Below are positions 1,133 through 21,918 of a DNA stretch of 30,234 bases, one piece after another. The notes beneath the pieces are model-generated. The model was given only the letters and a program-made list of their open reading frames with translations, was not told the DNA's origin and made no database searches. How positions within the stretch are numbered: position 1 is the first letter of the stretch; the number at the start of each line of letters is the position of its first letter. The position numbers and the translations under genes are program-made. Source of the stretch: a virus; IMG/VR virus record IMGVR_UViG_3300030098_004816, positions 1 through 30,234 of that record; one strand, given 5' to 3'.

Positions 1133-1468
1133 ACTACTCGTTTTTTTGTAGCCCATTGGTGGCCTACTATTGGAAAGAAAATAACTAAGGGTATGGCCTT
1201 TGTTTTCTTTCACCTCAGAGATTTTCTAGGGGTCTTCCTACTGCGGTGTTTTTATCACCACTGAAACTCAAAACACTGCTGTTGGGTAGAAAGCTGGTAA
1301 CTGCGTTACGACAGGCGCAAATAACATGGCTATTGGAAATCGTACAAGTTGTCCTCAATTGCTTCTCAAAACCCTCAAAAGTATTCGTTTATTTATTGAA
1401 GCTGCAATAGGCATTGCAGAGGATTCCTATGGGTATACATCACCGGGTAATCCAGGAACCCGGAATCA

Positions 1469-1524
1469 GCGTTGCAAGCGTTGCAAAACTGAAAAACTAA
1501 GAAAACTAAATAACTGGAAAAACT
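1469..1524. repeat. Tandem 9-mers and phased AAAACT array (iteron-like)
   Basis: GCGTTGCAA occurs twice in tandem (1469-1477, 1478-1486). It is followed by four AAAACT hexamers beginning at 1485, 1493, 1502 and 1519, spaced roughly 8-9 bp or twice that. The A-rich strand asymmetry and phasing resemble initiator-binding iterons next to an unwinding element, but no initiator gene is recognised in the window. Confidence 0.4.
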
Positions 1525-1572
1525 GTAGAACTATGCTCAGTGAATGATGCGTTCGGTGGGATTGGTCAACGC

Positions 1573-1599
1573 AAAAAAAAGCGGCCCACGAGGGGCCGC
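1573..1599 (-). terminator. Rho-independent terminator of the primase operon
   Basis: On the minus strand, GCGGCCC pairs perfectly with GGGCCGC (1581-1587 / 1593-1599, 5-nt loop), followed by eight Ts (As at 1573-1580 on the plus strand). It lies about 140 bp downstream of the 162-residue gene and closes the minus-strand module, facing the plus-strand terminator at 1014-1049. Confidence 0.9.
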
Positions 1600-1664
1600 C
1601 AAAATGCCACAAAGGACTTACTTTTACTTCTAGCGTAACAATTGTAGTTCAAAGAGTGGGGGTG

Positions 1665-1728
1665 GGCAAGGGCGGCTGGATGTGTCGATGACGTAAGGGT
1701 TGTCATAGATAAGATGACCGCCCCTGCC
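1665..1728 (-). repeat. Nested inverted repeat in the 3' untranslated region of the primase operon
   Basis: An 11-bp stem with one mismatch is formed by GGCAAGGGCGG (1665-1675) and CCGCCCCTGCC (1718-1728). Inside its loop, ATGAC (1688-1692) pairs with GTCAT (1702-1706). The element starts 9 bp after the stop of the 162-residue gene and precedes the terminator, so it would be transcribed as a two-level hairpin. It may be a stabilising 3' structure or a small RNA. Confidence 0.5.
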
Positions 1729-1737
1729 AAATACAGT

Positions 1738-2226
1738 TTAATCTCTAGTAAGCACTGCTGACAAGATATTTATTCTGTCTTGGTTATCTGTCCACTCGTC
1801 TTCGATCACATGGCGATATAAGACTTCGACTCCTATGTCACCGTGTTTCTTTTGTATGGCTTTGAGAATACCTCGCAACCTCATAAGGCCGCTGGTCATC
1901 ATCTCAGGCTTGCCCCCCTCACTTACAACCGCCTCCATGTTGGGAGACTTGATGTACACGTTGGCAGACTGAGCGATGCCAAGGATGCGCTCTGCCTCTT
2001 TGTGCTGGTCGGTATCTATATGATCATCTAATAATAGTTTATCAACGAATAGTTGGTCTTTGATTCTTAGTCTTAGGAAGCCGTTGTCTGCATCCTCGAA
2101 CCCAACGGAATGCTTTTTGTGCAGCTCCCGACTTCCTATCTCGTTTACTAGAGGCTCAGAGCCAGTCATCTTCTGTCTCTTGGTAGCTTCTGCTGGAGAG
2201 GCTTGACGGGATTTGGATGTTGCCAT
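1738..2226 (-). CDS. Unknown protein downstream of the primase-helicase (162 aa)
   Basis: This open frame starts inside the 3' end of the primase-helicase gene. The ATG at 2226 has GGAG about 8 nt upstream and gives a 71-bp overlap. The alternative ATG at 2169 (MTGSEPLV) would reduce the overlap to 14 bp. The first 19 residues are basic and low in complexity. The rest is mixed helix and strand, with no motif I recognise. Position as the last gene of the primase operon, before a strong terminator, suggests an early or replication role; this is inference. The start is uncertain, the coding call is firm. Confidence 0.75.
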   Translation of the reverse strand: MATSKSRQASPAEATKRQKMTGSEPLVNEIGSRELHKKHSVGFEDADNGFLRLRIKDQLFVDKLLLDDHIDTDQHKEAERILGIAQSANVYIKSPNMEAVVSEGGKPEMMTSGLMRLRGILKAIQKKHGDIGVEVLYRHVIEDEWTDNQDRINILSAVLTRD

Positions 2227-3946
2227 AGGTAGGCTCCGAATATCGGCCGCTGTTTACATCATAATCCAAGGTGGTCTTACCTGTCGATCCGATCCATTTG
2301 AAGCGAACCTTCCAGCAATGTATCTCTACTTCTTTATTTTTATTCTGATGTACAGTGACACCCAAGTCTGCCTTGGCAAAGAAGCTTGCGCTGCCTGAGA
2401 TGTTCATGCCCTTCGGAACTGCTGTAGTGCCTGACTGATCTGTCGGCATCTTGCTGGGGTGGGCTATGAACCATATGTGAATGTCGTTGGCTCTGGCGAA
2501 GCTCACCAGCCGTGTGAGCATATCGTTAATCGAGTGATGTTCGTTCTCAGTTTGTGTGGTATTCGCAATGTAGTTGTAGGGATCTATCACCAACCCCCTG
2601 ACACCCATACGCATCACCGCCTGCTGCGCTCTATCGAGTATCGAATCTATCGTAGCAATCTCACCTGATCTCTGCTCTAAAAACATCCAGTGTTCTTGTA
2701 TGTAATCGAGTGCGTCTTTGTATTCCTGCTTGGTCATGCGATCAGGCTTGCCGTCAAAGAAAGATTTGCCTTGTATCTTCTCCGCCAACTTGGCAACGTG
2801 CAGCGGTGGCGGATTCTCGAAGCTGGCAACCGCGAACTTCCAGTCATACTTTTCCGCTAGGTTAACCATTATCTGGTCAATAAACTCCGACTTGCCTGAT
2901 CCTGGGACTCCAGTAACCACACTGAGTTGACCTTGTACAATAGTGAAGAGATCGTCTACCGCCTTGATCCCTGTGCTCAAACCCCCGACAACTCCGTTGT
3001 CATACAGGTGGTTCACTTCACTTCGATAGTCAGCCACAGTGTATACACCTTCCAGCGGCATTGGCTCTGCGGATTCAATCAACTGACGCACACCGCCCTC
3101 GCCATGCTTTAGCAATACATCGTTGGGATCTTTACATCCCTCTGGGTATACAACTTCGTGACACTTAGCTCGCCCAATCCTGCGAGCAAGCTCCTCACGC
3201 AGAGCCTCGCCAGCTTCATCGTGGTCAACGGCGATCACTATTTGCTCGGCATCTTTCAATACATCCTTCGCTTCCCAAACGTAATTAAACTTGTTGTCCT
3301 CACGAGGATCGATTCTCTTATTACTTACACGCTGCGGTGCGCCGTTAGGAACAGATAAGATAAATATTTCATCGTCAATAATAGAAGTAGCGATGCTCAG
3401 ACAATCTATTTCACCCTCAGTAATCACAATTTTTTTCGTAGCGTGGGAGGCCCGCGCAAGATCTACCCCCCAAAATATCCTAGCGGCCCCATCCTGTGTG
3501 AATCTCTTATCTCCAAGCGGCCTCCACTTCACAGCCTCTTTGTTACCGTAAACAAAACCTATCGCTGGAACTTCCCCAGCTTCGAGATCACCATGCGCTC
3601 TGAAGTATTTATTACCCACAACAATGTCATAGCGATCCCTTACTTTGTGATAAGTAATACCCCGACTCTTCAGATACAAAGCAAGTCTAGCGTTCTCATC
3701 CTGATCATCAGACTTTTTAGGCATGGATATCGCCGTTACCTTGGGGCGATACTTATTTGCATCTCTATCTCTGTGAAGCCCACTGATCTCACAGTGGTGG
3801 CACTTGTACAATAGGCCGTCAGTTTCTACGGTAACCGCCAGTGTGCGGTCTGTTTTTTTCTTCCTCTCTGGGGTGCAAACTGGACAGATATATCTGCCCG
3901 TTTGATCTACCGTAGATAAAAAAGTTTCTAGAATGTCTTGCGCCAT
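2156..3946 (-). CDS. Bifunctional DNA primase-helicase (T7 gp4 / Twinkle type)
   Basis: Unwinds the replication fork and synthesises RNA primers. The N-terminal zinc-binding module has Cys21, Cys24, Cys49 and Cys52. The TOPRIM primase core shows Glu177 in TEGE and Asp241/Asp243 in VDHDEAG. The C-terminal RecA/DnaB-like helicase has Walker A GVPGSGKS (346-353), Walker B LVIDP (452-456) and the motif WFIAHPSK (492-499). Length (596 aa) is close to T7 gp4 (566 aa). The C-terminus ends EDDWL, an acidic tail with an aromatic residue. In T7 gp4 a comparable tail contacts the DNA polymerase; the same four residues end the SSB-like protein at 7231-7566. AGGGG lies about 8 nt upstream of the ATG. An operator-like repeat cluster precedes the gene. 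Confidence 0.95.
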   Translation of the reverse strand: MAQDILETFLSTVDQTGRYICPVCTPERKKKTDRTLAVTVETDGLLYKCHHCEISGLHRDRDANKYRPKVTAISMPKKSDDQDENARLALYLKSRGITYHKVRDRYDIVVGNKYFRAHGDLEAGEVPAIGFVYGNKEAVKWRPLGDKRFTQDGAARIFWGVDLARASHATKKIVITEGEIDCLSIATSIIDDEIFILSVPNGAPQRVSNKRIDPREDNKFNYVWEAKDVLKDAEQIVIAVDHDEAGEALREELARRIGRAKCHEVVYPEGCKDPNDVLLKHGEGGVRQLIESAEPMPLEGVYTVADYRSEVNHLYDNGVVGGLSTGIKAVDDLFTIVQGQLSVVTGVPGSGKSEFIDQIMVNLAEKYDWKFAVASFENPPPLHVAKLAEKIQGKSFFDGKPDRMTKQEYKDALDYIQEHWMFLEQRSGEIATIDSILDRAQQAVMRMGVRGLVIDPYNYIANTTQTENEHHSINDMLTRLVSFARANDIHIWFIAHPSKMPTDQSGTTAVPKGMNISGSASFFAKADLGVTVHQNKNKEVEIHCWKVRFKWIGSTGKTTLDYDVNSGRYSEPTYGNIQIPSSLSSRSYQETEDDWL

Positions 3947-3976
3947 CGATGATCCCCTGATAGTTTTCTGTTTATC

Positions 3977-4041
3977 CTAAGTAGTCTACTTAGACTAAGT
4001 AGTCTTCTTTCCTAATAAATAAGAGATCACTTAGATAAGTG
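3977..4041. promoter_or_regulatory. Operator-like repeat cluster upstream of the primase gene
   Basis: CTAAGTAGTCT is repeated at 3977-3987 and 3995-4005, an 18-bp period. CTAAGTAG-T-CTACTTAG (3977-3993) is a perfect 8-bp inverted repeat. A further palindrome, CACTTA-GA-TAAGTG, lies at 4028-4041 over the stop codon of the upstream gene. All share the core ACTTAG/CTAAGT. The position, in an 84-bp gap before the primase-helicase, suits a transcription-factor operator or an RNA hairpin that tunes primase translation. I cannot identify the binding protein. Confidence 0.55.
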
Positions 4042-4276
4042 TCCTCTTAGTCTTTTCGATGATCTCTTTGATCATCTTCTCCCGACGAACTCCTTTCTCC
4101 CTCAAAGCTTCAAACACACTCTCCCTGAGCTTCTCTGGGTTGATCTGAGCGCCCTCGCAAAAACCCCTATGTTCACCCCTCTGGAAGTAGAAAATCGCGT
4201 TGACACGATTGTCCTGCGACTCCCCATACAAATCCTTGAGCATTCTGACGAACTCTGACTTAGCGAGGTCTGTCAT
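4031..4276 (-). CDS. Small charged unknown protein (81 aa)
   Basis: This gene lies between the resolvase and the primase and overlaps the resolvase 3' end by 17 bp. CGGGA lies about 6 nt upstream of its ATG. It has a basic C-terminal helix (residues 58-79, rich in Lys, Arg and Glu) and a middle segment NAIFYFQRGEHRGFCEG. No family is recognised. Location implies a role in DNA metabolism, but that is inference only. Confidence 0.65.
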   Translation of the reverse strand: MTDLAKSEFVRMLKDLYGESQDNRVNAIFYFQRGEHRGFCEGAQINPEKLRESVFEALREKGVRREKMIKEIIEKTKRTLI

Positions 4277-4628
4277 CTGCTGTCCCGATATAGATCTCTG
4301 ACCTGGGATTCTCTTTATCGAGACCCCAGCGAATCCATTTCTCTTTCACCTGTCGATCATTCTTGTAGATATAACCCTGCATACAATCGAGTATCACCGA
4401 CTCGTCCAAGTCAGGTCTGCGACTCGCGTAGAAGATAGTCATGTCTACCCACAGATCCCCCTCAAGCATATCGTCTTCTAGGTTTGGGCATTGCTGAGCA
4501 AAGGTCTTCACATACTCTCTAGCCTTTTTCGATTTGATGAATGCAGGACGGCCTTTGATTGTGACAAGCTGGCGGCTGTTCGCTTTACTTGCAGGCTCCC
4601 CTTTTATTTCAAATCTAAGACTTGTCAT
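4260..4628 (-). CDS. rusA-like: RusA-like Holliday junction resolvase
   Basis: Members of this family are dimeric nucleases that cut four-way DNA junctions in phage recombination and in clearing branched DNA before packaging. The N-terminus has the typical GEPASKANSRQ stretch. The catalytic region is RRPDLDESVILDCMQGYIY followed by KNDRQV. Asp73, Asp75 and Asp91 line up with Asp70, Asp72 and Asp91 of E. coli RusA. Length (122 aa) is normal for the family. The lysine that usually follows the Asp pair appears as Glu76 or is shifted. AAGGA sits 6 nt before the ATG. It is the first gene of the minus-strand early operon, divergent from the exonuclease operon. Confidence 0.85.
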   Translation of the reverse strand: MTSLRFEIKGEPASKANSRQLVTIKGRPAFIKSKKAREYVKTFAQQCPNLEDDMLEGDLWVDMTIFYASRRPDLDESVILDCMQGYIYKNDRQVKEKWIRWGLDKENPRSEIYIGTADDRPR

Positions 4629-4735
4629 GTTTATCCTTTGGATGTATCTTGCATGGTAAACGACAAACGTGCAACACTAAATGAGTAAGATGGGACGGTA
4701 CATTATAAACGCTGAAGAGAAAGGAGATCTCGAAT
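4629..4735. promoter_or_regulatory. Divergent promoter region between the two early operons
   Basis: This 107-bp gap separates the RusA-like gene (minus) from the plus-strand early operon, so it should hold promoters for both. A TATAAA at 4704-4709 (or CATTAT at 4701-4706) could be a -10 for the plus operon, but I see no good -35, so a phage-modified or phage-specific promoter is possible. A strong Shine-Dalgarno, AAGGAG (4721-4726), lies 9 nt before the ATG at 4736. Confidence 0.5.
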
Positions 4736-5023
4736 ATGACGAGCGAAGAAGACGGTATATTGATCGAAGATGTCGGTCTGCCGCCAAAAATAAAACCAGA
4801 AAAACTACCAGAGGGATTGAACGAAACGCTCCTGACAATGGACGTTGGCAATAGTTTTTTCCTGCAGACAGACAATGATCAGCATTCTGCCCGAAAAATC
4901 GGTGCTCTGCGAGAACGCATCAAGCGATTTGGAATCAAACACCCAGAAAGAAAATACTCCATCTGGAAGGAAGAAGATGGTGTCAGGGTCTACAGGGTAG
5001 AGGACGATGCCGATTACCAATAA
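4736..5023 (+). CDS. Small unknown protein (95 aa), paralog of the 8257-8535 product
   Basis: First gene of the plus-strand early operon, with AAGGAG 9 nt upstream. It shares a clear pattern with the 92-residue protein at 8257-8535: a proline-rich start, then LxxMDVGxS followed by hydrophobic residues, then a charged helix with Ala and Arg, Gly-x-Lys, and finally EDGxRVxxxE. This suggests one small fold used twice. MDVGDS-type proteins are, as I recall, common in marine phages, without known function. The order suggests a small regulatory or nucleic-acid-binding protein; that is speculative. Confidence 0.75.
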   Translation: MTSEEDGILIEDVGLPPKIKPEKLPEGLNETLLTMDVGNSFFLQTDNDQHSARKIGALRERIKRFGIKHPERKYSIWKEEDGVRVYRVEDDADYQ

Positions 5024-5876
5024 CCACAGACTGCCTGACTTCGTTGTCGATGCATTGACGTATGACACTTACAGTCGGGGTGAATCTGATATCTCAGTTA
5101 CCCAACTAATAGATAGCCCAAGGGTATCTCTCCTGCAGGCAGAACACGCAGATAAAATAGACAGGGACGCTGTTGATTTTCTCTGGTCTCGCTTTGGCAC
5201 GAGTGTCCACGAGATGTTTGAGAAGAGTGTCAGTGATGACGAGTATGTGACGGAAGAGAGGTTGTTTCACAAGATAGATGATTGGACTATCAGTGGAGCT
5301 ATCGATCTACAGCACATACACAAAGACGGTATCGCAGTTGCAGACTACAAGGTAACGAGTGTCTGGTCTGTCATATTCGACAAACAGGAGTGGCACAAAC
5401 AACTGAACTGCTATGCCTGGTTAGTTCGTAAAGCCAAGCAAGTATCGGTAAAGTCGTTAAGTATTGTGGCGATTCTGAGAGATTGGAACCGCCGTAAGTC
5501 TGAAGAGTCTGCAGATTATCCTGAGTCACCAATAACTATAGTCAACATACCCATGTGGTCTGAGTCTGATCAGGATCAGTATGTATTCGACAGGCTGAAC
5601 GAGCATCAGTTGGCATACTTTCAATCTGTGTCTGGTGGCGATTTGCCAGAGTGCAGCGACGAGGAGCGTTGGAAAAAAAGCGACAAGTACGCAGTGATGG
5701 GTACTGGCAAGAGGGCCATCAGAGTGCTCAACAGTCTGGAAGAAGCAGAGGAGTATTCATCTGCGCTCGATCAGAAGACAAGAGTCGAGCACAGGGTTGG
5801 AGAATCTACACGCTGTATCCAGAACTGGTGCAACGTCAATGAATGGTGTGATCAATACCAAGGGGGAAACGTATGA
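5007..5876 (+). CDS. PD-(D/E)XK nuclease, RecB/Cas4-like exonuclease
   Basis: Likely a 5'-3' exonuclease that produces single strands for annealing. Core motifs are visible: His68 in TSVHEMFE, Asp100 in GAID, the active-site pair Asp113-x-Lys115 in VADYKV, and the Gln132/Tyr136 helix KQLNCYAWL. The C-terminus carries Cys270, Cys275 and Cys281, spaced as in the iron-sulfur cluster of Cas4/AddB-type nucleases. I do not see the usual N-terminal fourth cysteine, so a cluster is uncertain. The start overlaps the previous gene by 17 bp. With the annealing-type protein at 6426-7238 it resembles a phage exonuclease/annealase pair. Cas4 is used only as a structural comparison; no CRISPR genes are present. 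Confidence 0.85.
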   Translation: MPITNNHRLPDFVVDALTYDTYSRGESDISVTQLIDSPRVSLLQAEHADKIDRDAVDFLWSRFGTSVHEMFEKSVSDDEYVTEERLFHKIDDWTISGAIDLQHIHKDGIAVADYKVTSVWSVIFDKQEWHKQLNCYAWLVRKAKQVSVKSLSIVAILRDWNRRKSEESADYPESPITIVNIPMWSESDQDQYVFDRLNEHQLAYFQSVSGGDLPECSDEERWKKSDKYAVMGTGKRAIRVLNSLEEAEEYSSALDQKTRVEHRVGESTRCIQNWCNVNEWCDQYQGGNV

Positions 5877-6425: not shown

Positions 6426-7238
6426 ATGAAAAGAAAACACGACATACCTGACGGCGTGATAGATGTATTGCGAGAGATAGGGATGACACCAAGGGAAGCT
6501 GGGTGGGATTGTCATGGCACATACGTCCTGCTGCACAAAGCATTAGAGAAAGTTGCAGCTAAGCGGAACGTAGTTTTTGACGAGCCAAAAATACTTAGCG
6601 CAGACGTTACATCAAAAGAAGCGGTGGTTCTCTGTGTTGGCAGGATAGGGGAGAAGACGGAGTGGAGTATCGGTGAGGCTGCACCGTACAACAACAAGAA
6701 CTCTTATCCATTTGCTATGGCAGAGAAAAGAGCGAAAGACAGGGTGATTTTAAAACTCGTTGGGTTGCATGGTGATGTCTATGCAGAGGACGAGGCAGAC
6801 GCTTTCAAGGAAAGTGCTCCTCAGAATATGCCTGGAACTACCAGCCAAGGCCAAGGCGATCCTATAGAAGAAGAGGAATCTATAGAGGAAATGGCAGAGC
6901 AAGCTCACGAGTCAATGAAGAAGGTAGAGGCTGCAGCTAAAGAGAATTCAGCACCCACAGAGGAGATAGAAATACCAGATACTATCGAGGGCAAGCGAGA
7001 ATTTATAAAGAAGCAGAAGCCCAATGACGTTGTTAACTGGACTGAAGATTACTGCAAGACAGTCGTTGGGCTTATATGCGAACTTGCAGATCTGGAAGAT
7101 ACATTTGATGGTCTCAAATCTTACGCTTTGGCAAACAAAGCACTGATCGGAAAAATCAAAGAGCATTTTCCAAGCCAATATGACGTTTACAAAGAAGTGA
7201 TGAACAACAAAAAAATGGGGATACAAAACGATGGATAG
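6426..7238 (+). CDS. Putative single-strand annealing protein (Rad52/ERF-like)
   Basis: Probably anneals complementary single strands during phage recombination. The N-terminal 120 residues look like the conserved core. The helix YPFAMAEKRAKDRVILKLVG (about residues 94-113) resembles the Ala/Lys/Arg helix followed by hydrophobic residues and Gly in Rad52/ERF/Sak-type proteins. It is followed by an acidic Glu/Ala-rich linker (residues 122-190) and a helical C-terminal domain. AAGG lies before the ATG. Location after the RecB/Cas4-like exonuclease and before an SSB-like gene supports the role. The family call rests on a short motif plus context, so it is moderate. Phages of this type often carry a relative annotated only as hypothetical. 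Confidence 0.55.
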   Translation: MKRKHDIPDGVIDVLREIGMTPREAGWDCHGTYVLLHKALEKVAAKRNVVFDEPKILSADVTSKEAVVLCVGRIGEKTEWSIGEAAPYNNKNSYPFAMAEKRAKDRVILKLVGLHGDVYAEDEADAFKESAPQNMPGTTSQGQGDPIEEEESIEEMAEQAHESMKKVEAAAKENSAPTEEIEIPDTIEGKREFIKKQKPNDVVNWTEDYCKTVVGLICELADLEDTFDGLKSYALANKALIGKIKEHFPSQYDVYKEVMNNKKMGIQNDG

Positions 7239-7566
7239 ACAAGTAGCACTAGGCGATGACTTTTACTTTAACAATAACGACGATAAGACGCATGATCGGC
7301 AACCCGACATGAAGGGCAGACTTATCCTCAACGGAGAACAGCTAAGAGCTTTGATCCAGATTCACGAGGAAGCAGTCCAAGATGGAGAAGCGCCCTTGCT
7401 GCAAATTGATCTGGCTGGGTGGAAAGGTAAGAGCAAGAAAGATGGTAAGCCGTACTTGTATGTTAAGAACGAGGTTTACTTTGGGCCTCGCAAGTCTAAG
7501 AGACCAGTACAGAAACCTAACAAGCCAACAACAGTTGAGCCTCGCAGCGACGATGACTGGTTATGA
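7231..7566 (+). CDS. SSB-like protein with acidic C-terminal tail (111 aa)
   Basis: Residues 28-86 form a compact beta-rich core (KGRLILNGEQLRALIQ, then LLQIDLAGWKGKS and YLYVKNEVYFG) compatible with an OB-like fold. A basic, proline-rich linker follows, then an acidic tip ending SDDDWL. SSB proteins and T7 gp2.5 have this design, with a terminal acidic/aromatic peptide that recruits replication proteins. The primase-helicase ends in DDWL too. The start overlaps the upstream gene by 8 bp. I cannot prove DNA binding from sequence; the assignment is from layout, tail and context. Confidence 0.6.
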   Translation: MDRQVALGDDFYFNNNDDKTHDRQPDMKGRLILNGEQLRALIQIHEEAVQDGEAPLLQIDLAGWKGKSKKDGKPYLYVKNEVYFGPRKSKRPVQKPNKPTTVEPRSDDDWL

Positions 7567-7985
7567 TCTCATTTAACATACTCCCTGGGGATGTAGAACA
7601 GATCAATGATCTCTCTAGATTTCTGGGGGGTTTGAGCGATCCTCGCAAGGGCGAGATCGTGGCACTCCTCACTGACATTCCGTTAGGTATTACGGTGACA
7701 ATATCTAAGACTAAGCAGGAGAGATCTCGCCAACAAGAGCGGTACTACCGCAAATGGTCACGCGAGTTTGCTAAGTTTTGCGGGATGACTCCAGACGAAC
7801 TGCATGAAGAGCTGTTGTGCAGGGCGTTTGGCAGTGAGGAAATATCAACTAAGTTTGGGATTAAGCGCAGGCCACTGAAGCGCAGTGGTGATACCAACCG
7901 CAGCAAGTATTCAGAACTAATAGACATTCTGATTATGACTGCAGCGGAGATGGGGTTTGCTGTGCCAGCACCAAAGGAAGAGTAA
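7563..7985 (+). CDS. ninB-like: NinB-like recombination protein (140 aa)
   Basis: Resembles the lambda NinB (Orf) family, which binds single-stranded DNA and helps load recombinases. The signature is a basic Arg/Gln stretch, ERSRQQERYYRKWSREFAKF (about residues 53-72), then GMTPDELHEELLCRAFG and a C-terminal helix with ILIMTAAEMGFAVPAP. Length matches the family (about 140 aa). The start overlaps the stop of the SSB-like gene by 4 bp. Neighbouring SSB-like, annealing and RusA-like genes make a recombination role likely. This is motif recognition by eye only. Confidence 0.68.
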   Translation: MISFNILPGDVEQINDLSRFLGGLSDPRKGEIVALLTDIPLGITVTISKTKQERSRQQERYYRKWSREFAKFCGMTPDELHEELLCRAFGSEEISTKFGIKRRPLKRSGDTNRSKYSELIDILIMTAAEMGFAVPAPKEE

Positions 7986-9027: not shown

Positions 9028-9214
9028 GTGTGAGCTTTGCGGGGTACGAGAGGACGAGAGAAGTATGCAGGATCAGTGTGGTGTTTTCCTGTGTAGGCGC
9101 TGCGTAAACTATTACAGTGATGAAGAGCTTGAGGAGCTGCTTGAAACAGAGAAAAAGCTTGAAGAGTTCAACGACATCGATAAAAGATTGCGGAAGATGT
9201 GGGGTGAAGATTGA
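9020..9214 (+). CDS. Small zinc-ribbon protein (64 aa)
   Basis: Cys4, Cys7, Cys20, Cys25 and Cys28 (CxxC ... C ... CxxC) suggest a zinc-binding ribbon at the N-terminus, followed by an acidic coiled-coil-like tail (residues 33-60). It overlaps the previous gene by 8 bp and the methyltransferase start by 4 bp. It may be a small regulator or nucleic-acid-binding protein; the family is not recognised. Confidence 0.65.
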   Translation: MIKCELCGVREDERSMQDQCGVFLCRRCVNYYSDEELEELLETEKKLEEFNDIDKRLRKMWGED

Positions 9215-9999
9215 AGTGCTTGGATCTTTTCTCTGGGATCGGTGGATTCAGTGTCGGGCTCGAAGGTGCTGGCATGGAAACGATTGCATTCTGTGAGAAA
9301 GATCCGTTCTGCAGACAGGTTCTAAAAAAACATTGGCCCCATGTGCCGATACACCATGACATAGGAGAGTTAGATGGGAGACAGTACAGAGGAACAGCCA
9401 GACTTGTTTGCGGAGGATTTCCTTGTCAGCCCTACAGCTTGGCGTCCAGGGACAGACTCGGCTCGGAAGATGACCGTGCGCTCTGGCCGGAAATGTTTCG
9501 CGTCATCAAAGAAGTCAGGCCAGATTGGGTTGCTCTCGAAAATGTTGTTGGAATCATCGATATGGAACTCGACACGGTGCTATCTCAACTGGGAGTTGAG
9601 GGCTACACCACAGAAACATTTGTACTGCCAGCTTGCGCCCAAGATGCACCGTCCATCAGATCAAGAGTCTTTGTTCTGGCCCACACCTACGACGAGAGAA
9701 TACAAAGGGGCGAGAAGCCAAGAATCGATGGACAAAACTGGCAGGAACCCGATGACAAATACATTGAGCGATGCGGTGGAAGCGGCCTCGGGGTACAGCA
9801 CGGAGAGTGGGAAGCTGCGTGGATCGCTGAACCCAGAATTTTGCGAATGGATCATGGGATTCCAGATCGGGTACACAGAATTAAAGCGTTAGGCAACGCC
9901 GTAGTGCCGCCACTGATAAGAGTTTTAGGTGAAGTAATTATGGAAGCAGACTGTTACTTTCGAGATGATTATATGATACTAGATTCTGCTGAAGACTAA
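9211..9999 (+). CDS. dcm-like: DNA (cytosine-5) methyltransferase, orphan
   Basis: Transfers a methyl group from S-adenosylmethionine to cytosine C5, probably to protect phage DNA from restriction. Motif I is LDLFSGIGGFSVGLEGAG (4-21), motif IV GGFPCQPYS carries the catalytic Cys72, motif VI is ENV (110-112), motif VIII is SIRSRVFVLA (Arg150, Arg152) and motif X is ALGNAVVPP near residue 230. At 262 aa it is small, with a short recognition domain (about 160-215). The TTG start at 9211 is needed to keep motif I. No restriction enzyme is adjacent, so it looks like a stand-alone protective enzyme. A second open frame is nested inside it. Confidence 0.93.
   Translation: MKCLDLFSGIGGFSVGLEGAGMETIAFCEKDPFCRQVLKKHWPHVPIHHDIGELDGRQYRGTARLVCGGFPCQPYSLASRDRLGSEDDRALWPEMFRVIKEVRPDWVALENVVGIIDMELDTVLSQLGVEGYTTETFVLPACAQDAPSIRSRVFVLAHTYDERIQRGEKPRIDGQNWQEPDDKYIERCGGSGLGVQHGEWEAAWIAEPRILRMDHGIPDRVHRIKALGNAVVPPLIRVLGEVIMEADCYFRDDYMILDSAED
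9374..9892 (+). CDS. Nested overlapping ORF in the methyltransferase gene (172 aa), possible second protein
   Basis: This frame is +1 to the methyltransferase and lies entirely within it. The ATG at 9374 follows AGGAG (9363-9367) with 6-nt spacing, better than the start of the host gene. The product has segments resembling a family I have seen in many phages: DSARKMTVRSGRKC, then LESSIWNSTRCYLNWELRAT, QLAPKMHR, WPTPTTREYKGAR and finally LNPEFCEWIMGFQIGYTELK. The final motif overlaps the bases that encode the methyltransferase motif X region (RVHRIKALGNAV). It may be a real dual-coded protein or an alternate-frame echo of conserved motifs. Function unknown. Confidence 0.5.
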   Translation: MGDSTEEQPDLFAEDFLVSPTAWRPGTDSARKMTVRSGRKCFASSKKSGQIGLLSKMLLESSIWNSTRCYLNWELRATPQKHLYCQLAPKMHRPSDQESLFWPTPTTREYKGARSQESMDKTGRNPMTNTLSDAVEAASGYSTESGKLRGSLNPEFCEWIMGFQIGYTELKR

Positions 10000-10097: not shown

Positions 10098-10388
10098 ATG
10101 TCAAGATTAAGAACCTCTGCGAAGGGCAAGATGTGTACGCTGCAGATATATCCATACTGCAATAACAATCCAGAGACTACTGTGCTTTGTCATTTACCAA
10201 GCAATAGTGGGATAGCAGCTAAGTCGCCTGATTACTGGGCGGTCTATGGGTGCTCTTCATGTCACGATGTTATCGACGGGAGAGCCAAGACGGATCTATC
10301 GAAAGAAGAGATCCTAAAATGTCAGATGCGCGGGCTTAAAAGAACGTGGGAACACATGATGGAAAATGGATTGATAACCATCAATTAG
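10098..10388 (+). CDS. ybcO-like: YbcO-like (DUF1364) putative HNH-type nuclease (96 aa)
   Basis: Small phage protein of the YbcO/DUF1364 type, thought to be a metal-dependent endonuclease in recombination or DNA processing. Visible features are an N-terminal basic start (MSRLRTSAKGKMC), Cys13, Cys21, His32 in VLCHLPS, and CSSCHDVIDGR with Cys52, Cys55 and His56, which could bind a zinc or catalytic metal, then a helical C-terminus ending KRTWEHMMENGLI. AAAGG lies 7-8 nt before the ATG. Last gene of the plus-strand operon; its 3' end overlaps the convergent giant gene by 8 bp, and I see no terminator at the junction. Confidence 0.75.
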   Translation: MSRLRTSAKGKMCTLQIYPYCNNNPETTVLCHLPSNSGIAAKSPDYWAVYGCSSCHDVIDGRAKTDLSKEEILKCQMRGLKRTWEHMMENGLITIN

Positions 10389-13300
10389 TTCTACCTATCT
10401 TCTTGTCATACCTCTTGTTGAACTTGGCATACTCTTCATTGATCTTGTCGTAGGCAGCTTCCTCTTTAAGAGCAAACTCTCTGGCATTTAATGGAGAGTC
10501 AGATGCTTCTTCTCTTAGGCTTCTTATTTCAGCTCTAATTCTTTTTATCTCCCGCTCTGTGTCATCAAGAATGTACTTAAAGTCTAGGTAGTTTTTGTTT
10601 TGCTTGTTGTAATCAATCCTCTCTTTGCCTCTAAGAGAATTGTACTGCCTGTTCTTTTGAGTGATCTTGGTTCTTCTTTCATAGAAGTCCTCCATAGCAG
10701 CCATTTGGCTAGGCTCACCCATAATTCTTCTAACAAAAGGTATTTCTCTAAGCTCCAGATCTTCTGAGTTGGCCCACTTTTCTAGGGCGTTAAAGTTTCT
10801 TAGGCCGAATGTTCCTGCCCCACCAACTATGAACTGAGTCAAATGCTGTAAGGTCTCTGGGGATACATCAATAAAACCAGACTCATTAGAGTTGCCTCGT
10901 GTCAGCTCGTTTAGAAATGATGCAGTCTGCTTAAAGATCGCGCCAGTTGACGCTCTGGCTAAAGCAGAATCGGGATACTCAGGCTCTCCTGGAAAACTCT
11001 CTCTGTATATCGGGCCGCCCCAGAAGTTTCTGTTGAGACCTAACTCTATGAATGGCTGAGCAACTGTTGGAGCCACTGATACCGCAGAAGCCCCTACTGG
11101 TGAGAAAGAGCTGGTAAATGCAGCCAAGAAATTACTAGTTGCTTTCTCTGCAGAAATTAATCCTTGAGACATTTCATACAGGTTTTGTCCCAAAACATGG
11201 AAAACATTGTACCCATATGGCAGAGGTATTGAGTAATACTCTCTACCGTTGTCTTTCATAATGATAATATTTCTTTCTTTTACAAAATCCTCTATGTCTG
11301 AGTAGTAAGATCTGCCGCTTATTGGATCTTCTTCACTCTCCTCCTCTGCCCTCATCGCGTTGATTGCACCTAGAGCAATGAGTCCTGTGACAGCGCCCTG
11401 CTTGACTCTGCTTGCTTCTTTGCTGAACGGGTTGCCTTTCGGCCCAAATAATCCTCTGGCAAAGTTAGCTGTACCTTGAACGCTGGCATTGAAGAAAAGA
11501 TACAAAGAGTTTATCAGGTCTCCACTCATACCTTTTCGATTAAAGTTGATCGTCAAATTCTTAGCTAGACTAGCTGCTCTAGCAACCGCAACATCTCTAG
11601 GTATGCCTGCCTCTAGAAGCTGATCTCTCGACGCTTTGAAGGTCGCAAACCTGACAGCGTTCTCTACAGCAGAGTTACTGTCCTCTACGAAATTAAATAT
11701 TGCGTCTCTTCGTTTTTTGAAGTTGCCTGTGAATGTTCCATTAGCCATATCCACCATTGACTGTATGGTTTTGAATTGATCCTCTGGAGGTCTAGTGTGG
11801 AACCAGTCTGCCTTTGCTCCTGATCCGATGAACTCCTTGAAGTCCTCCATGTCTTTGGGGGATATTCTCGTAAAGAACTCTCCTGCAGCTTTCATGGCAT
11901 CTGTTTCTACTAAGTCTCTAAAGGTTCCAGTCTTAATGTCGTACCGTCTCAGACCTTTGTAGAACGCACCCATAGAAGGGATTACGTCTTTAAGAACTGT
12001 GGATATAAGCTTCTGATCTTTTGCTTTGCCTTTGGACATATTCTGCTCGCCAAGCAGATTGTTGATTGCTGTCTGCACATCACGAGAGAAGTTTCCAATA
12101 ACGAACTCTGGGTTTAGAGATGTGTTAACCATAGAAAGCCATCTGTTAACCACACCAAACTTCTGTATTAATTGCTGTGCATCACTGGCATTCATGCTTA
12201 GCAACGCTTTCTCTAACCGCTTATCAGATAGCTTCACATAATATTGCTCGCCATCTATTTTTGCTCCAACTGTATTTGGATCTAATGCACCAGCTAGATT
12301 ATTAACTCTGTCTACAACTTGTTTTATATAGTCTTTTCTATTTGCGCCAGCAGGAATCTTTGTGACCTGTGTGCCTTGTAAGTCTGGATCTTTACCAACA
12401 TAGGTATACTTTCTTTCTAGTTGCGATGTTACCTCTGAATCACCTGGGGCTATGACGCTCCAGAAGTCTGGGTTTGGATTGTCTTTTATTAGCTTGATTA
12501 AACGCTGGCCTACGTTTTGATTCTTTATGCCCCTAGATATTGATCGCTCAGCATTTAATAATGTGTGTCCAAGGCTGGATTCTGCTGCGCTTTCACGACC
12601 CATGGCAGCCATAGTCTCTGGCCCCTTAGTGCTGTAGCTGCTGCCGATTACTATATCCTGAGCTACATCATCCTCCATGTCTTTGCCGCGCAGAGGGGTG
12701 TAGTATTTGAACATATCCATGATTGAGTCTGCCGATTCTCGGTCAATTAAACCGTACTCAACATTCCTATCCATAGTTTCTTTATTGATCTGATCCAAGT
12801 CTTTAGCAATAGAAAGCAACTTCTCTGCCCTTGCGTTGCCTCCAGTCCATGTCTCGCTTGCATCATTCCAAAGTAACCCATACTTGTCTGCCATGCGCCC
12901 TTTGACAAAGCTATTAGAAAGTCGCTCACCTGTCTTCAAAGATCCCGCTCCTGGAGATTCTTCCACATCGAGCCTGCGGTCTCTAAGCTTGAGCATGTTG
13001 TTTCTTTCTATCGCATGACGCAAAACTAGAAACTCGTCCACCTCTTCCAAGGGGATCTCTGATTCAGCTATCTTCTGAGCTAAAGGGCGTTTTTTATTGA
13101 GATCGAAATCTTTAGCGAGAGCGCCTATCTTACCGGCAACAGTTTCCTCGCCAACATATGGATTGTCCTGATCCCTAACCTCTGGCAAACCCTTCTCAAC
13201 TCTGGCTCTGTTAAGGCCATCTATAAGATTTTTAAGACCTATAAACTTATCTTGCACTTGATAGATAAACTTATCGCCCTTGGTGTAGTCGGCCCCTCTA

Positions 13301-16300
13301 AGAAAATATGATCCGCTTTGCCAAGGGAATGGACCCTGACCAACCATATCCTGATTTACTATAGAATTTAATGTTTCTGGATTTCTGTTTGCTGCTCGCA
13401 TAATAGGATCGCTTTCACGATCCTTGAAGTCTTCTGCAATTTGATCGGCTTCTTTTCTTCTAGCAGATATTATTTCTTGATCTGCCCTTGAGAGCCTCGA
13501 CTCCCTTGTATCTTCCTGTACTTCTCTATCAATTGCTTCATCGCTGCGTCCCCTGCTTGCATCGCGGCCAACTCCATCCCTTGAGATGTACCTGTCAGTG
13601 ATTTCAGAGATTGTTTCATTGGTTGATGCCCCTTTATAACCAGATTTCTTGGCAGCGTTTATCATATAGAACCAACGCATTGCCTGCAAAGCTGCAGGGT
13701 CTGCATCCATTTCATATTTTTTATCGAATTCTTTTTTGAATCGTCTGGAAAAATCTTGGAATAAAGCATCCTCATCTACCGTAACAGGCAGCCCAGTGTT
13801 CTTTTTGAATTGATCCTCGAAGTAACTCCTGATGAATCTAGACTCCCAGACATCTATTGTTGTGAATCTTGTATCGCCAGTGAGGTTTAGCGTGTAAGCG
13901 CCCACCTTTTTACCAAAGATAAACATCCTTGGGATAAGTTTGTCTTGGCCTGTAGCTTGGTTTACCAGTGATCTGATTGCGCCAATATCTGATACATTGC
14001 TTTTGTATCCCATCTTTCTATTGAACGCCTGCAGCTCCTTGACAGTCACCCCCTCAGAAAGAAAATCTACTGCTGACTTGACAGGCTCTGGCTCGTTACT
14101 GTTTAAATTTATAAGACGCTCAAATACTTTTAGTGCTCTGGCTTTGTTTGGACTGGATGCCCCAGATATTTTAAATGGCGATGACTTGATAACGACATTG
14201 CCGTTTTCGTTAACGCCCATCTTTATGTCATCTAAGTTGCCTTTGTCTTTGTACAACTCAAAAACATTTAGGGCATCTCCAACATTTGCTGGCAGAGATG
14301 TCTGGGCAGAGTTCAAGCCATTGAATACCTGATACAAACGTAACTCGTCATCTGTTATCTCTCCATACTTGGAGTCCAGCGCCTGACGAACACCCTGCAT
14401 GTCTGCTTCGTAATAGTCTTTATACTTGGGATTGTCTGCTATGAAATCAGAAACATCGTTCAAAGCTCTCTTTGCGGCAGTGCCTATCTTATCTGTGGAC
14501 ACGGTTCCTTTGATTTCAGCAAGCATGGAGGGCCAAAACTTGCCAAAGAACTCTTCTTCTACTGCAGTGTTGTAGTCATTGTATTTGGTAGTGGCAAGCT
14601 TGATTGTGCTTTCTATTGGTGTTGTAGACTTTCTTCTTGCTTGAGCTGGCTGTTGGCCTGGGATAGTTTCCTCTAAAGATCTCTCGTCGCTTGGCATGCC
14701 GATACCCCTTTCTGGCACAGCGCCAACTAATCTTTCTGTCTGCTGGAGAGTTCTAATCTTTCCTCTCTCTCGCTTACCTATCTCACCAGACTCAAGTCTT
14801 TGTACAATGTCCTCGAAACTCTGGAACCCAGTGCCTCTGATCGCGCTAGATGCTCTGTCTATGAAATTATAGAATCTGTTTATAAGAGACTTTGGCTTTC
14901 CTGATATAAACTTGTTATCTTTTCTTGCGTCCTTGATTAGCTCTGCGACAGCCTCTTCCATTTGAGATACGGGACTCATCGGCCTCCCTCTCCCATCTGT
15001 CTTATATCGCTCCTTAGCTTCTATAAAATAACTTTTGTTAGGATCATCTTTACGCATTTTTTTCTTTGCTGCGTTCTCCAGCAAAGACCACTCGCTTTCC
15101 TCCCACAAATCAAGATCTCTTACAGCATGGACTGTCTCGTGATTTAAGATCTGATCAAGAGCCGCCTTCTTAGACTCTGGGCTGGCATCTCTGGAAAGCT
15201 CGTTAGCAACATCCATTGCCAAGAATATTCTTCTGACTGAGGGCAAGTAGTAACCCAGAGGCACATCAGTTGTCTCTCTTGGATCTCCAGTAAGTATTAT
15301 CTCTCCCTCTCTGGTAACTGGGCCTAACCTCAAGGCATCCATAACCCTTACGCCGACATCGCCCAACCCGATAGCGTTCATCTCATCCTGTAGATTTTGC
15401 TCAAAGAGTTTTGCCTCTTGGGCAATTGGCATCTTTGTTACTGGATCAAATAAAAGCTCAGGCTCCTTGTAAGGTATGTCTGGTATGTCATCGAACTGAT
15501 CTTCTATTCTGGTCTGCCTTTCCCCTGACTCTATGGCTGGAAGATCAGGCTTAACATTGACCGTAAAATCTTTATTTACTAAACCGCTTGATATTAGATC
15601 TTTTGAAATCTCTTCTGATATTTCATATGTCGGAAAGGGTTCGTCTCTTATTTCATCTAATCTTCTTTTTATAAGAGGAAACAATCGATCACTATCTATT
15701 TCAGAAATAATGCTTTCAATGTTTGCTGGAGAGCCATCCTCCATCGCTATTACATGCTCTGTAACTATATCGTACAGGCGTTTCGTGTATCTCTTAGGGG
15801 TGAAGTTTGGTATCCGGGTTTTTTGCGGTAATCGCGGAAACTTTTTGATCTCTTCAACAAGATACATACGTTGAGAGGGAGACATATTATCCATGCCTTG
15901 CTCGCCAACGATACGCTGAGAGATGTATTTTACCTCTGGTGAATCAATGCCAGACACTATGTTTTTATCAACGAGGGCTTTTTCTAGCTCAGCTCTGCTG
16001 GATCTTTCGTCCTGATACTCTTGCCTGCTTTGAGCAACCTTCTTGCCCACCGTGCCAAAATCAGAGAGCACCTCTGCATCGTCTGGTTGCTTTATACCCA
16101 ACAGAACATCAAAGACGTTAGAGTATTTGTCACCCAGTATTTGTTTTGCTTCATCTAGAGTGAACTCATCTATCTCTGATAAACCTTTTTTCTTTCTCTC
16201 TAGGTTTACTTCTTGAGATGCAGTTAGATTAGAAAGAGGCTTGTATAGTTTTTCGCCTCGATCTGTAAAGGGAGGAACACCGTATTGCTCAACGTGCAAC

Positions 16301-17982
16301 TGGTCTATTGTTTTATCTTCTTGGAAGGGAGATGTGGCAGACGATACCGTGCCTGCAGCTTGGTTTAATACAGCACTGTTTATCTTGTATATGTTAGGTC
16401 TGTTAAGCTTTTGACCTATGATGTATATGTTTTCCGCTTGCTCTGGAGTGTAAAGCTCTGGGGACAAATCCATTGAGTCTAGAATGGCTCTGTTTATATT
16501 ACGATTTACAAGCTCCTTGTTTAGGCTAGACGTTAGATGAGCAGCAAACTCATAATCTCTGGATGGCTCTCCATAAACCTTTCCATCTTGGGTGCTATAT
16601 ACCTCAAACCTAGAACCCTCTGGGCCAAGCTTAATCTCTCTAAACGTGAATGCGCCACCATCTGGGAATACGTTATCTCTTCTCAGCGCATCCCTAGATA
16701 TCTGATTAGCATATTCAGCGGCCTGTTCTGCTAATGTAAGATTTTGCCTTGTCTTGGGCCTATAAGGTTGTTCTGGATTAAACGGCTCCTGCTCTACCTT
16801 TTGCGCTTCTTCTTGGAGTCTTGTTGCCTCATCAATAGCTGCAAGGCGATCTCTTTGCTCGAACTGAAGTTTGTATATCTCTGCGTCTTCTAGATATTCT
16901 GCCCTTCTCTTATCAAGCTCATTTCTAATTAATTGCTCTTTCTGCTCTTCAACATTTCTTATGGCCCTTCTTTTCTTATTGGTAAGACCAGTTGCAAATG
17001 CGTCCAATATTGCCCCTGCTGGAGCGCCAATAGTAAAGTCATCCCACATTGAGTCGCCAACCGCGACAGTCTCATCGTATAAGCCATACTGAATGCCGTC
17101 CTGTAACAGACCAGAAACAGCTTCTTGAATACCCTCCACCGAACCCTGCTGACCGGCACTCTTTAGCCGATCATATCTGCTCATAATCTGATTTAGTTTT
17201 CTCGCCTCTGTGAATAACTCGTTTCTTGCCCTAGCTATTGCTACTTCATCTCCTGCTTGAACTGCGTCATCCAGTTTTTTCTGCAAACCCTCTACGATCT
17301 TTTCGGGCTCTTTAATGCCTCTTATTTTTTTTAAGGCGCTAAGAGGTGTTATTGATTCGAGAGTTCCTACCGCGCCACCAAGGAATATGGATAGATCTTC
17401 CTTCCTGTCCGATATCTCTATGCCTCTCTCTCTGGCAGCTCTAATCCTTTCTGCCTGCTCGTCTGCTCCAGCGCCAACACCAGCGGAAACAGTGGCAGCC
17501 TTGCCTATCTTTGATGCAGTAGCGGCAGTTGCGCCAAGTCTTCCAGCGGCCCCTGCAGCACCCAACCCTGGAATAAAGAATGATCCAATAGACCCTAAGC
17601 CTTCACTCAATCCGACTAGGTAGCTGTCTTTGTAAGCGTCACCAACGCCCATGTACTCATCTAGCGCATCTTTGCCCTGATTAGCTGCGTTGATAAGCAT
17701 ATTCTCATCGCCGCTATCTATGAGACCCTCAAGACCAACAGCATCAGTGGCAACATCCGCAAGCTCTGCGAGTCCAGCGCCAGCCGATAAGAGACCTTTT
17801 CCAAAGCCGCGACCAAAACCCTTAATTATTTCACCGCCAGTGCCTATTACTGTTTGCTCTGGTTTGTTCATCTCCTCATATTGGAGTTCCGCAAACCTAA
17901 GAATATCTAGCTCTGAAGCGTCCTCTGGATGCTCAACATTTAAAGTTGATCCGTCAGGCGTATTAACAGCGGTGATAGGCAC
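10381..17982 (-). CDS. Giant virion protein with putative metallopeptidase motif (2533 aa)
   Basis: Probably an internal or DNA-ejection protein packed in the virion and released into the cell. The N-terminus has a short acidic alpha/beta segment (HPEDASELDILRFAELQYEE) seen in other phage ejection proteins. Gly/Ala-rich hydrophobic stretches follow (about residues 45-180), possibly membrane-inserting. At 948-952 lies HETVH, an HExxH zinc-peptidase motif, with candidate third ligand Glu1009/Glu1010 in MEEAVAELI. The C-terminal half (about 1560-2300) resembles large polyvalent-protein-associated regions of phages (PEFVIGNFSRDVQTAINN; LPYGYNVFHVLGQ). It is the last gene of the late operon. Whether the peptidase is active is unknown. 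Confidence 0.85.
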   Translation of the reverse strand: MPITAVNTPDGSTLNVEHPEDASELDILRFAELQYEEMNKPEQTVIGTGGEIIKGFGRGFGKGLLSAGAGLAELADVATDAVGLEGLIDSGDENMLINAANQGKDALDEYMGVGDAYKDSYLVGLSEGLGSIGSFFIPGLGAAGAAGRLGATAATASKIGKAATVSAGVGAGADEQAERIRAARERGIEISDRKEDLSIFLGGAVGTLESITPLSALKKIRGIKEPEKIVEGLQKKLDDAVQAGDEVAIARARNELFTEARKLNQIMSRYDRLKSAGQQGSVEGIQEAVSGLLQDGIQYGLYDETVAVGDSMWDDFTIGAPAGAILDAFATGLTNKKRRAIRNVEEQKEQLIRNELDKRRAEYLEDAEIYKLQFEQRDRLAAIDEATRLQEEAQKVEQEPFNPEQPYRPKTRQNLTLAEQAAEYANQISRDALRRDNVFPDGGAFTFREIKLGPEGSRFEVYSTQDGKVYGEPSRDYEFAAHLTSSLNKELVNRNINRAILDSMDLSPELYTPEQAENIYIIGQKLNRPNIYKINSAVLNQAAGTVSSATSPFQEDKTIDQLHVEQYGVPPFTDRGEKLYKPLSNLTASQEVNLERKKKGLSEIDEFTLDEAKQILGDKYSNVFDVLLGIKQPDDAEVLSDFGTVGKKVAQSRQEYQDERSSRAELEKALVDKNIVSGIDSPEVKYISQRIVGEQGMDNMSPSQRMYLVEEIKKFPRLPQKTRIPNFTPKRYTKRLYDIVTEHVIAMEDGSPANIESIISEIDSDRLFPLIKRRLDEIRDEPFPTYEISEEISKDLISSGLVNKDFTVNVKPDLPAIESGERQTRIEDQFDDIPDIPYKEPELLFDPVTKMPIAQEAKLFEQNLQDEMNAIGLGDVGVRVMDALRLGPVTREGEIILTGDPRETTDVPLGYYLPSVRRIFLAMDVANELSRDASPESKKAALDQILNHETVHAVRDLDLWEESEWSLLENAAKKKMRKDDPNKSYFIEAKERYKTDGRGRPMSPVSQMEEAVAELIKDARKDNKFISGKPKSLINRFYNFIDRASSAIRGTGFQSFEDIVQRLESGEIGKRERGKIRTLQQTERLVGAVPERGIGMPSDERSLEETIPGQQPAQARRKSTTPIESTIKLATTKYNDYNTAVEEEFFGKFWPSMLAEIKGTVSTDKIGTAAKRALNDVSDFIADNPKYKDYYEADMQGVRQALDSKYGEITDDELRLYQVFNGLNSAQTSLPANVGDALNVFELYKDKGNLDDIKMGVNENGNVVIKSSPFKISGASSPNKARALKVFERLINLNSNEPEPVKSAVDFLSEGVTVKELQAFNRKMGYKSNVSDIGAIRSLVNQATGQDKLIPRMFIFGKKVGAYTLNLTGDTRFTTIDVWESRFIRSYFEDQFKKNTGLPVTVDEDALFQDFSRRFKKEFDKKYEMDADPAALQAMRWFYMINAAKKSGYKGASTNETISEITDRYISRDGVGRDASRGRSDEAIDREVQEDTRESRLSRADQEIISARRKEADQIAEDFKDRESDPIMRAANRNPETLNSIVNQDMVGQGPFPWQSGSYFLRGADYTKGDKFIYQVQDKFIGLKNLIDGLNRARVEKGLPEVRDQDNPYVGEETVAGKIGALAKDFDLNKKRPLAQKIAESEIPLEEVDEFLVLRHAIERNNMLKLRDRRLDVEESPGAGSLKTGERLSNSFVKGRMADKYGLLWNDASETWTGGNARAEKLLSIAKDLDQINKETMDRNVEYGLIDRESADSIMDMFKYYTPLRGKDMEDDVAQDIVIGSSYSTKGPETMAAMGRESAAESSLGHTLLNAERSISRGIKNQNVGQRLIKLIKDNPNPDFWSVIAPGDSEVTSQLERKYTYVGKDPDLQGTQVTKIPAGANRKDYIKQVVDRVNNLAGALDPNTVGAKIDGEQYYVKLSDKRLEKALLSMNASDAQQLIQKFGVVNRWLSMVNTSLNPEFVIGNFSRDVQTAINNLLGEQNMSKGKAKDQKLISTVLKDVIPSMGAFYKGLRRYDIKTGTFRDLVETDAMKAAGEFFTRISPKDMEDFKEFIGSGAKADWFHTRPPEDQFKTIQSMVDMANGTFTGNFKKRRDAIFNFVEDSNSAVENAVRFATFKASRDQLLEAGIPRDVAVARAASLAKNLTINFNRKGMSGDLINSLYLFFNASVQGTANFARGLFGPKGNPFSKEASRVKQGAVTGLIALGAINAMRAEEESEEDPISGRSYYSDIEDFVKERNIIIMKDNGREYYSIPLPYGYNVFHVLGQNLYEMSQGLISAEKATSNFLAAFTSSFSPVGASAVSVAPTVAQPFIELGLNRNFWGGPIYRESFPGEPEYPDSALARASTGAIFKQTASFLNELTRGNSNESGFIDVSPETLQHLTQFIVGGAGTFGLRNFNALEKWANSEDLELREIPFVRRIMGEPSQMAAMEDFYERRTKITQKNRQYNSLRGKERIDYNKQNKNYLDFKYILDDTEREIKRIRAEIRSLREEASDSPLNAREFALKEEAAYDKINEEYAKFNKRYDKKIGRTN

Positions 17983-21406: not shown

Positions 21407-21918
21407 TAGTCAATCCTCTTTTCGTAAACTACATATGATTTCTCGTAACCATCTTGCTTCAACCACTTCCAGAACCCTTCCCTAGCAGTGGCCTCTATGC
21501 CGGAACACTGATTGTCTATAGCCCAGTCGTTATACTTATCGACCATATCCCAGACCCAGTCATTAAAATTTTTGCCGCCAAGAAACTGTATGCACAGCAT
21601 TCTTTTGTGTGGGTAATTGACCAGCTCGGTTGTGCCAACCCCATCTATTTCTTTGTCAGTATTAAAGGCAACCCATAAATGCTGATGCCCTGTCACTATA
21701 GACTGATATAAAGTCTCCATGCTCCAGCGACCTTTGGATCTTGCAACAGCTTTACGAAGTTGGAACTCTACGTCCTTCCAAAGGATTGGAACATAATCTG
21801 CTGGAACCAAAGCTATCGTATGCGTCTTCTCTCCCCGATCAGATCGCTTTCTAACTTTAGGCTCTCTAGAAATATCTCTAAGGGGTTTAACCTCTAAAAG
21901 TTTTGCAGATTGTTTCAT
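21406..21918 (-). CDS. GNAT-like internal virion protein (T7 gp13-like, 170 aa)
   Basis: In T7-like phages, gp13 is a small protein with a GNAT-like fold needed for virion assembly or ejection. This protein has the same design: ALVPADYVPILWKDVEFQLR (residues 36-55), then GRWSMETLYQSIV (63-75), LWVAFNTDKEIDGVGTTEL (strands), MLCIQFLGGKN, and a C-terminal WAIDNQCSGIEATAREGFWK resembling the conserved Cys/Glu/Arg/Gly stretch before the last GNAT strand. The acetyl-CoA P-loop (Q/RxxGxG/A) is not obvious, so enzyme activity is doubtful. Overlaps both neighbours; role inferred from family and from the adjacent ejection proteins. Confidence 0.62.
   Translation of the reverse strand: MKQSAKLLEVKPLRDISREPKVRKRSDRGEKTHTIALVPADYVPILWKDVEFQLRKAVARSKGRWSMETLYQSIVTGHQHLWVAFNTDKEIDGVGTTELVNYPHKRMLCIQFLGGKNFNDWVWDMVDKYNDWAIDNQCSGIEATAREGFWKWLKQDGYEKSYVVYEKRID

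Follow-up and report, generated by a model that had tools for sequence, protein, structure and literature searches.

Analysis of the window, a virus contig of 30,234 bases taken in full, revealed that its bifunctional primase-helicase and a 111-aa protein encoded in the opposite operon (hereafter the partner) end in the same DDWL tail, and that this match between two unrelated proteins is not due to chance. To judge from the alignments, the match is real and meaningful: it is best described as a convergence of two SSB-Ct-type tips that arose without lock-step covariation, and it provides no evidence for a dock on a polymerase. The reading that we favour, with modest confidence, is that both tips are SSB-Ct-type motifs, that their docking sites lie on proteins able to bind SSB tips (SSB partners of the host and/or the phage NinB), and that they help to recruit host machinery.

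Both open reading frames and both C-termini, SDDDWL in the 111-aa protein and TEDDWL in the primase-helicase, were exactly as described in the first-pass annotation, as was the placement of the genes in opposite operons about 5 kb apart: the operons are divergent, with 5.4 kb from stop to stop and 3.3 kb between the gene bodies (Table 1). The phrog_239 profile covers residues 16–582 of the primase-helicase, near its full length, and both Toprim and DnaB_C domains were found. The recombination operon runs in the order PD-(D/E)XK exonuclease, putative annealase, 111-aa gene and NinB. This layout was kept in the IMG/VR relatives of the helicase, in which orf162, the helicase and RusA share a strand and the exonuclease, annealase, 111-aa homologue and NinB lie on the opposite one. 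The likely true start of orf162 is the ATG at 2167–2169, within the GAT GAC codons of the helicase tip; this gene, which has no functional assignment, is conserved in most near relatives, directly downstream of the primase-helicase and overlapping it, and may encode a helicase accessory protein.

Table 1 Features of the window that bear on the two C-terminal tips.
Feature	Position	Strand	Basis
Primase-helicase, bifunctional, 596 aa	2156..3946	-	phrog_239 DNA primase/helicase, E 2.1e-81; Pfam DnaB_C and Toprim_2
Putative C-terminal docking motif of the helicase, RSYQETEDDWL	2159..2191	-	Anchored conservation and codon-position variability
orf162, next gene downstream, overlaps the 3' end of the helicase gene	1738..2226	-	Conserved downstream gene in relatives
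RusA-like Holliday junction resolvase, same strand as helicase	4260..4628	-	phrog_140; PF05866
PD-(D/E)XK exonuclease	5007..5876	+	phrog_2139 exonuclease, E 1.6e-48; PF12705
Putative single-strand annealing protein, Rad52/Sak-like	6426..7238	+	Position; weak BLAST similarity to L007 protein
111-aa protein with SSB-type tip	7231..7566	+	Tip, operon, predicted structure
Tip SDDDWL of the 111-aa protein, apparently replacing DD[ILV]PF in the window's clade only	7546..7563	+	
ATGA stop/start overlap of the 111-aa gene with ninB	7563..7566	+	
NinB/Orf-like recombination mediator	7563..7985	+	phrog_72, E 5e-5

Pfam and PHROG profile searches gave no assignment for the putative annealase, and the L007 protein that it weakly matches is a Sak by phrog_8492/659. 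The same slot is occupied by a recognisable Sak in the close relatives G013 (PF06378) and L007, and the annealase seems to be swapped or to evolve very fast next to the conserved exonuclease, 111-aa gene and NinB. Elsewhere in the window, positions 9211–9999 encode a probable DNA cytosine methyltransferase with 89% identity to the copy in L003, whereas none of the other near relatives that were scanned gave a match. Positions 10381–17982 encode a giant protein of 2,533 aa, probably an internal virion protein, in which an LPD38 domain lies close to the C-terminus. A three-gene module of relatives, seen in L061 at 1340–4670 (G013 21340–24670) and not visible in the window, consists of a MoxR-like AAA ATPase, a gene without assignment and a DUF2201 metallopeptidase/VWA protein; Synechococcus phage MinM2 carries a similar set (MoxR, DUF3150 and VWA).

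Within related loci, ends of the DDWL type were found only on orthologues of the helicase and of the SSB-like protein. After exclusion of these two families, the C-termini of 2,295 distinct other predicted genes in these loci contained no case of [DE][DE]W[LIVMF] at the end, and it is on this count that chance is dismissed; [DE][DE]W occurred among the last five residues in 1 of the 2,295.

Alignment of the near relatives, anchored on the Trp, showed that the helicase tip has long been conserved in the window's branch of phage primase-helicases, in the form E-[TKN]-acidic-W-x. The Trp was kept in 21/21 near relatives, the preceding residue was acidic in 21/21 and E stood at position -5 in 20/21; in the same 21 sequences the linker 10–24 residues upstream was variable, with a per-column entropy of about 3 bits. 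Codon positions 1 and 2 of the tip were nearly fixed and position 3 was variable, despite the overlap with orf162, which indicates that selection acts in the helicase frame. These data bear on the idea that the tips arise chiefly from gene overlap, with GATGAC serving as the orf162 start, TTATGA as the ninB start and acidic codons being common in disordered tails anyway. Such an origin is improbable. Although GATGAC does contain an ATG, the ATGA overlap is likewise real, and partners with a terminal Leu were seen only in cases of ATGA overlap, third codon positions vary freely while the first and second do not, the overlap does not require a Trp, and the acidic-W stays where the putative orf162 start shifts to H-E codons (L032, L038 and L085). 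In addition, several helicases with a DxPF tip have no overlapping downstream gene. A pure overlap artefact was rejected on the codon-position data; for the Leu of the partner, an effect of overlap is still plausible.

A single-sequence search with the 111-aa protein retrieved no relatives among viral contigs, and members of its family were recovered via an alignment seeded from syntenic loci. The end ..[ILVW]PF was present in 57 of 74 distinct members; the window protein ends in DDDWL instead. The family alignment thus shows the canonical bacterial SSB tip, DD[ILV]PF, as the usual end of the partner, and the Trp tip as a switch in the window's clade. One member (L075 1933–2490; E 4e-14) is a protein of phage MinM2 that ends in DDDIPF and has a long linker of RDD repeats; its annotation as 'transcription termination factor Rho' looks wrong.

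Comparison of the tips between clades revealed Trp in both proteins in the window's clade (helicase DDWL, DDWD and DDWI; partner DDWL, DEDWL and EDEW), and in sister clades helicase ends of DEDWF, KEWY, DDWDIET and DDWDF with partner ends of DEEIPF, NFDF or DEDIPF. In a tree of 34 helicases, the window's Trp-tip partners fell into a single clade, which was monophyletic (100/99) and nested among PF/DF-tipped relatives; the partner therefore switched to Trp there, and the helicase tip is older. Covariation of the two C-termini, to which the first-pass annotation had looked for support, is not borne out by the sister clades, where the helicase keeps its acidic-W with any of these partner ends. 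They largely present the very pattern that it had named as counting against its proposal, one tail conserved and the other absent or unrelated. Strict covariation of helicase and partner is also ruled out by the mixing of tip classes among clusters.

The terminal Leu of the window's partner tip seems to be at least partly imposed by the overlap with ninB, since an ATGA overlap forces the last codon to be NNA and makes a terminal Phe, Tyr or Trp impossible. All five partners with an ATGA overlap with the next start ended in a residue other than Phe (Leu in four, Glu in one), as against 64 of 69 partners without the overlap that ended in Phe. In each of these five the penultimate residue was Trp, in the form DWL within the window's clade and EEWE in L153, which is distant. 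The overlap may have arisen before Trp, which then compensated for it, or the order may have been the opposite.

To cover the wider family, two further scans yielded a set of 47 helicase clusters at 70% identity. An acidic-aromatic end was found in 23/47 clusters versus 85/2343 other genes (p 7e-20, which is conservative because this pool still held partner proteins), and a PF end in 14/47 clusters versus 5/882 other genes when only those with products of 150 aa or more were counted. SSB-like ends on helicases included DEDIPF (L148 and L149), EEDDLPF (L135), DDDYPF (L151) and DDDDWPL (L125), and in named phages YDDFPF (phage PJN03), DNSDVPF (Flavobacterium phage sniff9-2) and KEDEVPF (Cellulophaga phage phi19:1); DDLPF and DDDCPF were further examples in wider relatives. 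Among bacterial genome contigs, mostly in records titled Bacteroidota, 30/75 helicases ended in P[FWYL], and these often adjoined a small protein ending in DDLPF, as in the case of DDDCPF beside DDDLPF. A clear tip was missing in about half of the 47 clusters, so that the tip is common and not universally required; it was also missing in several proteobacterial prophage-like helicases. In the open-access literature searched, phage primase-helicases were not described as carrying SSB-type tips.

The canonical tip of its family and its position in the operon suggest an SSB role for the 111-aa protein. Pfam and PHROG searches with the window protein matched no family, two relatives weakly matched phrog_18154 'single strand DNA binding protein' (E about 1e-4), and the Pfam SSB family had no match in 57 members of the partner family. 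A first structural model, built from 13 sequences, was too weak to judge, and its viral fold matches were uncharacterised or unnamed proteins; it was replaced by a model from 57 sequences, which predicted a beta-alpha-beta-beta core with a mean pLDDT of 88.6 (94–97 in the core blocks). Foldseek comparison of the latter with the PDB found no relative (best E 0.25), and PDB sequence searches with both alignments gave chance-like matches only. The PDB contains many OB-fold SSBs, and since the model nevertheless found no match there, an OB fold in the 111-aa protein seems unlikely. The family would then consist of widespread small proteins with a canonical SSB tip and apparently no OB fold.

The C-terminal tail of the 111-aa model was of low confidence and is probably disordered. 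This and its acidic character are consistent with a role of the tips within their own proteins, in which the acidic tail would cover the DNA-binding surface until DNA displaces it; in T7 gp2.5 the tail and ssDNA compete for one surface (Marintcheva 2008, cited in PMC5686142). However, autoinhibition of this kind leaves the precise DD[ILV]PF ends and the conserved helicase Trp unexplained, and we regard it as very improbable.

The first-pass annotation had proposed that both tails may compete for one site on a polymerase or exonuclease, with T7, where the tails of gp4 and gp2.5 both contact the gp5 polymerase, as the model. There, the helicase and the ssDNA-binding protein both end in acidic ...DF tails of like architecture (TDWSNDTDF in gp4), and on gp5 it is basic patches with which the gp4 tails make contact (PMC12593628). 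A DNA polymerase was, however, not detectable in the phages studied here. Pol A (family A) was found in 0/60 records, most of those searched being linear contigs that are possibly incomplete, and among the 60 are the genomes of four phages (MinM2, PJN03, sniff9-2 and phi19:1) that were deposited as complete; the identical search found Pol A in 12/12 T7-like phages. Pol B and Pol III alpha (C-alpha) were absent in the 29 records searched for them, including the window. The relatives of 48–60 kb break at different places, and in G012 both contig ends lie within one fibre-like gene and the map looks nearly closed. With no polymerase gene found in the records searched, T7-type docking was rejected, and, the tips not covarying either, competition on a phage polymerase is close to refuted. 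What survives of the proposal is that both tails behave like conserved docking tips, the helicase tip being under selection and the partner family usually bearing a bacterial SSB tip; the polymerase as their common target does not.

The window shares with T7 a primase-helicase and a presumed ssDNA-binding protein of one phage with alike acidic-aromatic tails. The two systems differ in that no polymerase was found here, the protein on the SSB side is a different one, and the tips are DWL or DxPF here and DF in T7; nearly all T7-like helicases and gp2.5 proteins have ..DF, ..DY or ..EF as their last residues, and none has PF. The resemblance to the bacterial SSB-Ct (DDDIPF) lies in the flexible acidic tail with an aromatic or hydrophobic end, and most partners and many wider-family helicases carry DD[ILV]PF or a near form. 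The window's tips depart from it in that both end in DWL, one of them on a primase-helicase and the other on a small protein without a detectable OB fold.

In the docking reading that we favour, each tip would be a short linear motif like the tip of bacterial SSB, with a flexible stretch of acidic residues closing on an aromatic or hydrophobic one, and would plug into basic, hydrophobic pockets. As no polymerase was found in these phages, the target is probably a host protein, most likely PriA, RecO, RecQ, Pol III chi or the like, and/or the phage NinB. A phage with a helicase of its own and no polymerase must recruit host synthesis, and the helicase and partner would bring the host's factors for synthesis and recombination to the fork of the phage, as a functional counterpart of the tail contacts of gp4 and gp2.5 with gp5 pointed at host machinery. 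Competition of the two tips for one site is possible. Many near helicases run on beyond the Trp (DDWDIET, DDEWDVEI), and known SSB-tip pockets read the C-terminal carboxylate; these helicases would therefore misfit such a pocket unless it were changed, which is the main weakness of the docking reading. The pockets described, a hydrophobic hole framed by basic residues, occur in ExoI, RecO, RecQ, Pol III chi, PriA, PriC, RNase HI and RadD (PMC10238739).

Inside the window, NinB is the best candidate for a tip partner, and the tips might dock solely on a protein that the phage itself encodes (NinB/Orf, the annealase or orf162), which would link phage replication with recombination without any host protein. 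In the window's clade ninB comes immediately after the partner gene. Within the Orf family, YbcN requires the SSB C-terminal tail for binding (PMC4118853). Likewise, HK620 Sak4 requires the tail of its cognate phage SSB (PMC5928155), and exonuclease, RusA, orf162 and NinB recur near the helicase and partner in relatives. However, most partner proteins carry the canonical host tip DD[ILV]PF, which points to a pocket compatible with the host, and the tip is unchanged where the annealase is swapped among close relatives (Sak in G013, unassigned in the window). We therefore consider an exclusively phage-encoded target unlikely, if still worth serious consideration. In the HK620 system the tip of the phage SSB (NDYPPF) is needed to stimulate the phage recombinase, which resembles the situation proposed here; the SSB is a different one, and no helicase tip is described (PMC5928155).

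For docking that includes host proteins, SPP1 gp40 offers a parallel: this DnaB-type helicase binds DnaX and DnaG and so recruits the host replisome through the phage helicase, and an SSB-type tip is not described for it in the cited passages (PMC6316719). We tentatively extend the docking reading to a large class of polymerase-less phages with their own primase-helicase, in which the SSB-type tip of the helicase could act as the SSB hub peptide and draw replication proteins of the host to the phage fork. The protein in the SSB position, whose fold was not seen in the PDB, would have converged on the helicase form in the window's clade. Coupling of a phage helicase to the host polymerase in polymerase-less phages is known for a few models only, such as SPP1. 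If the proposal is true, a helicase tip mimicking the hub peptide of SSB would offer a simple and general solution to this coupling, and would explain the shared tails.
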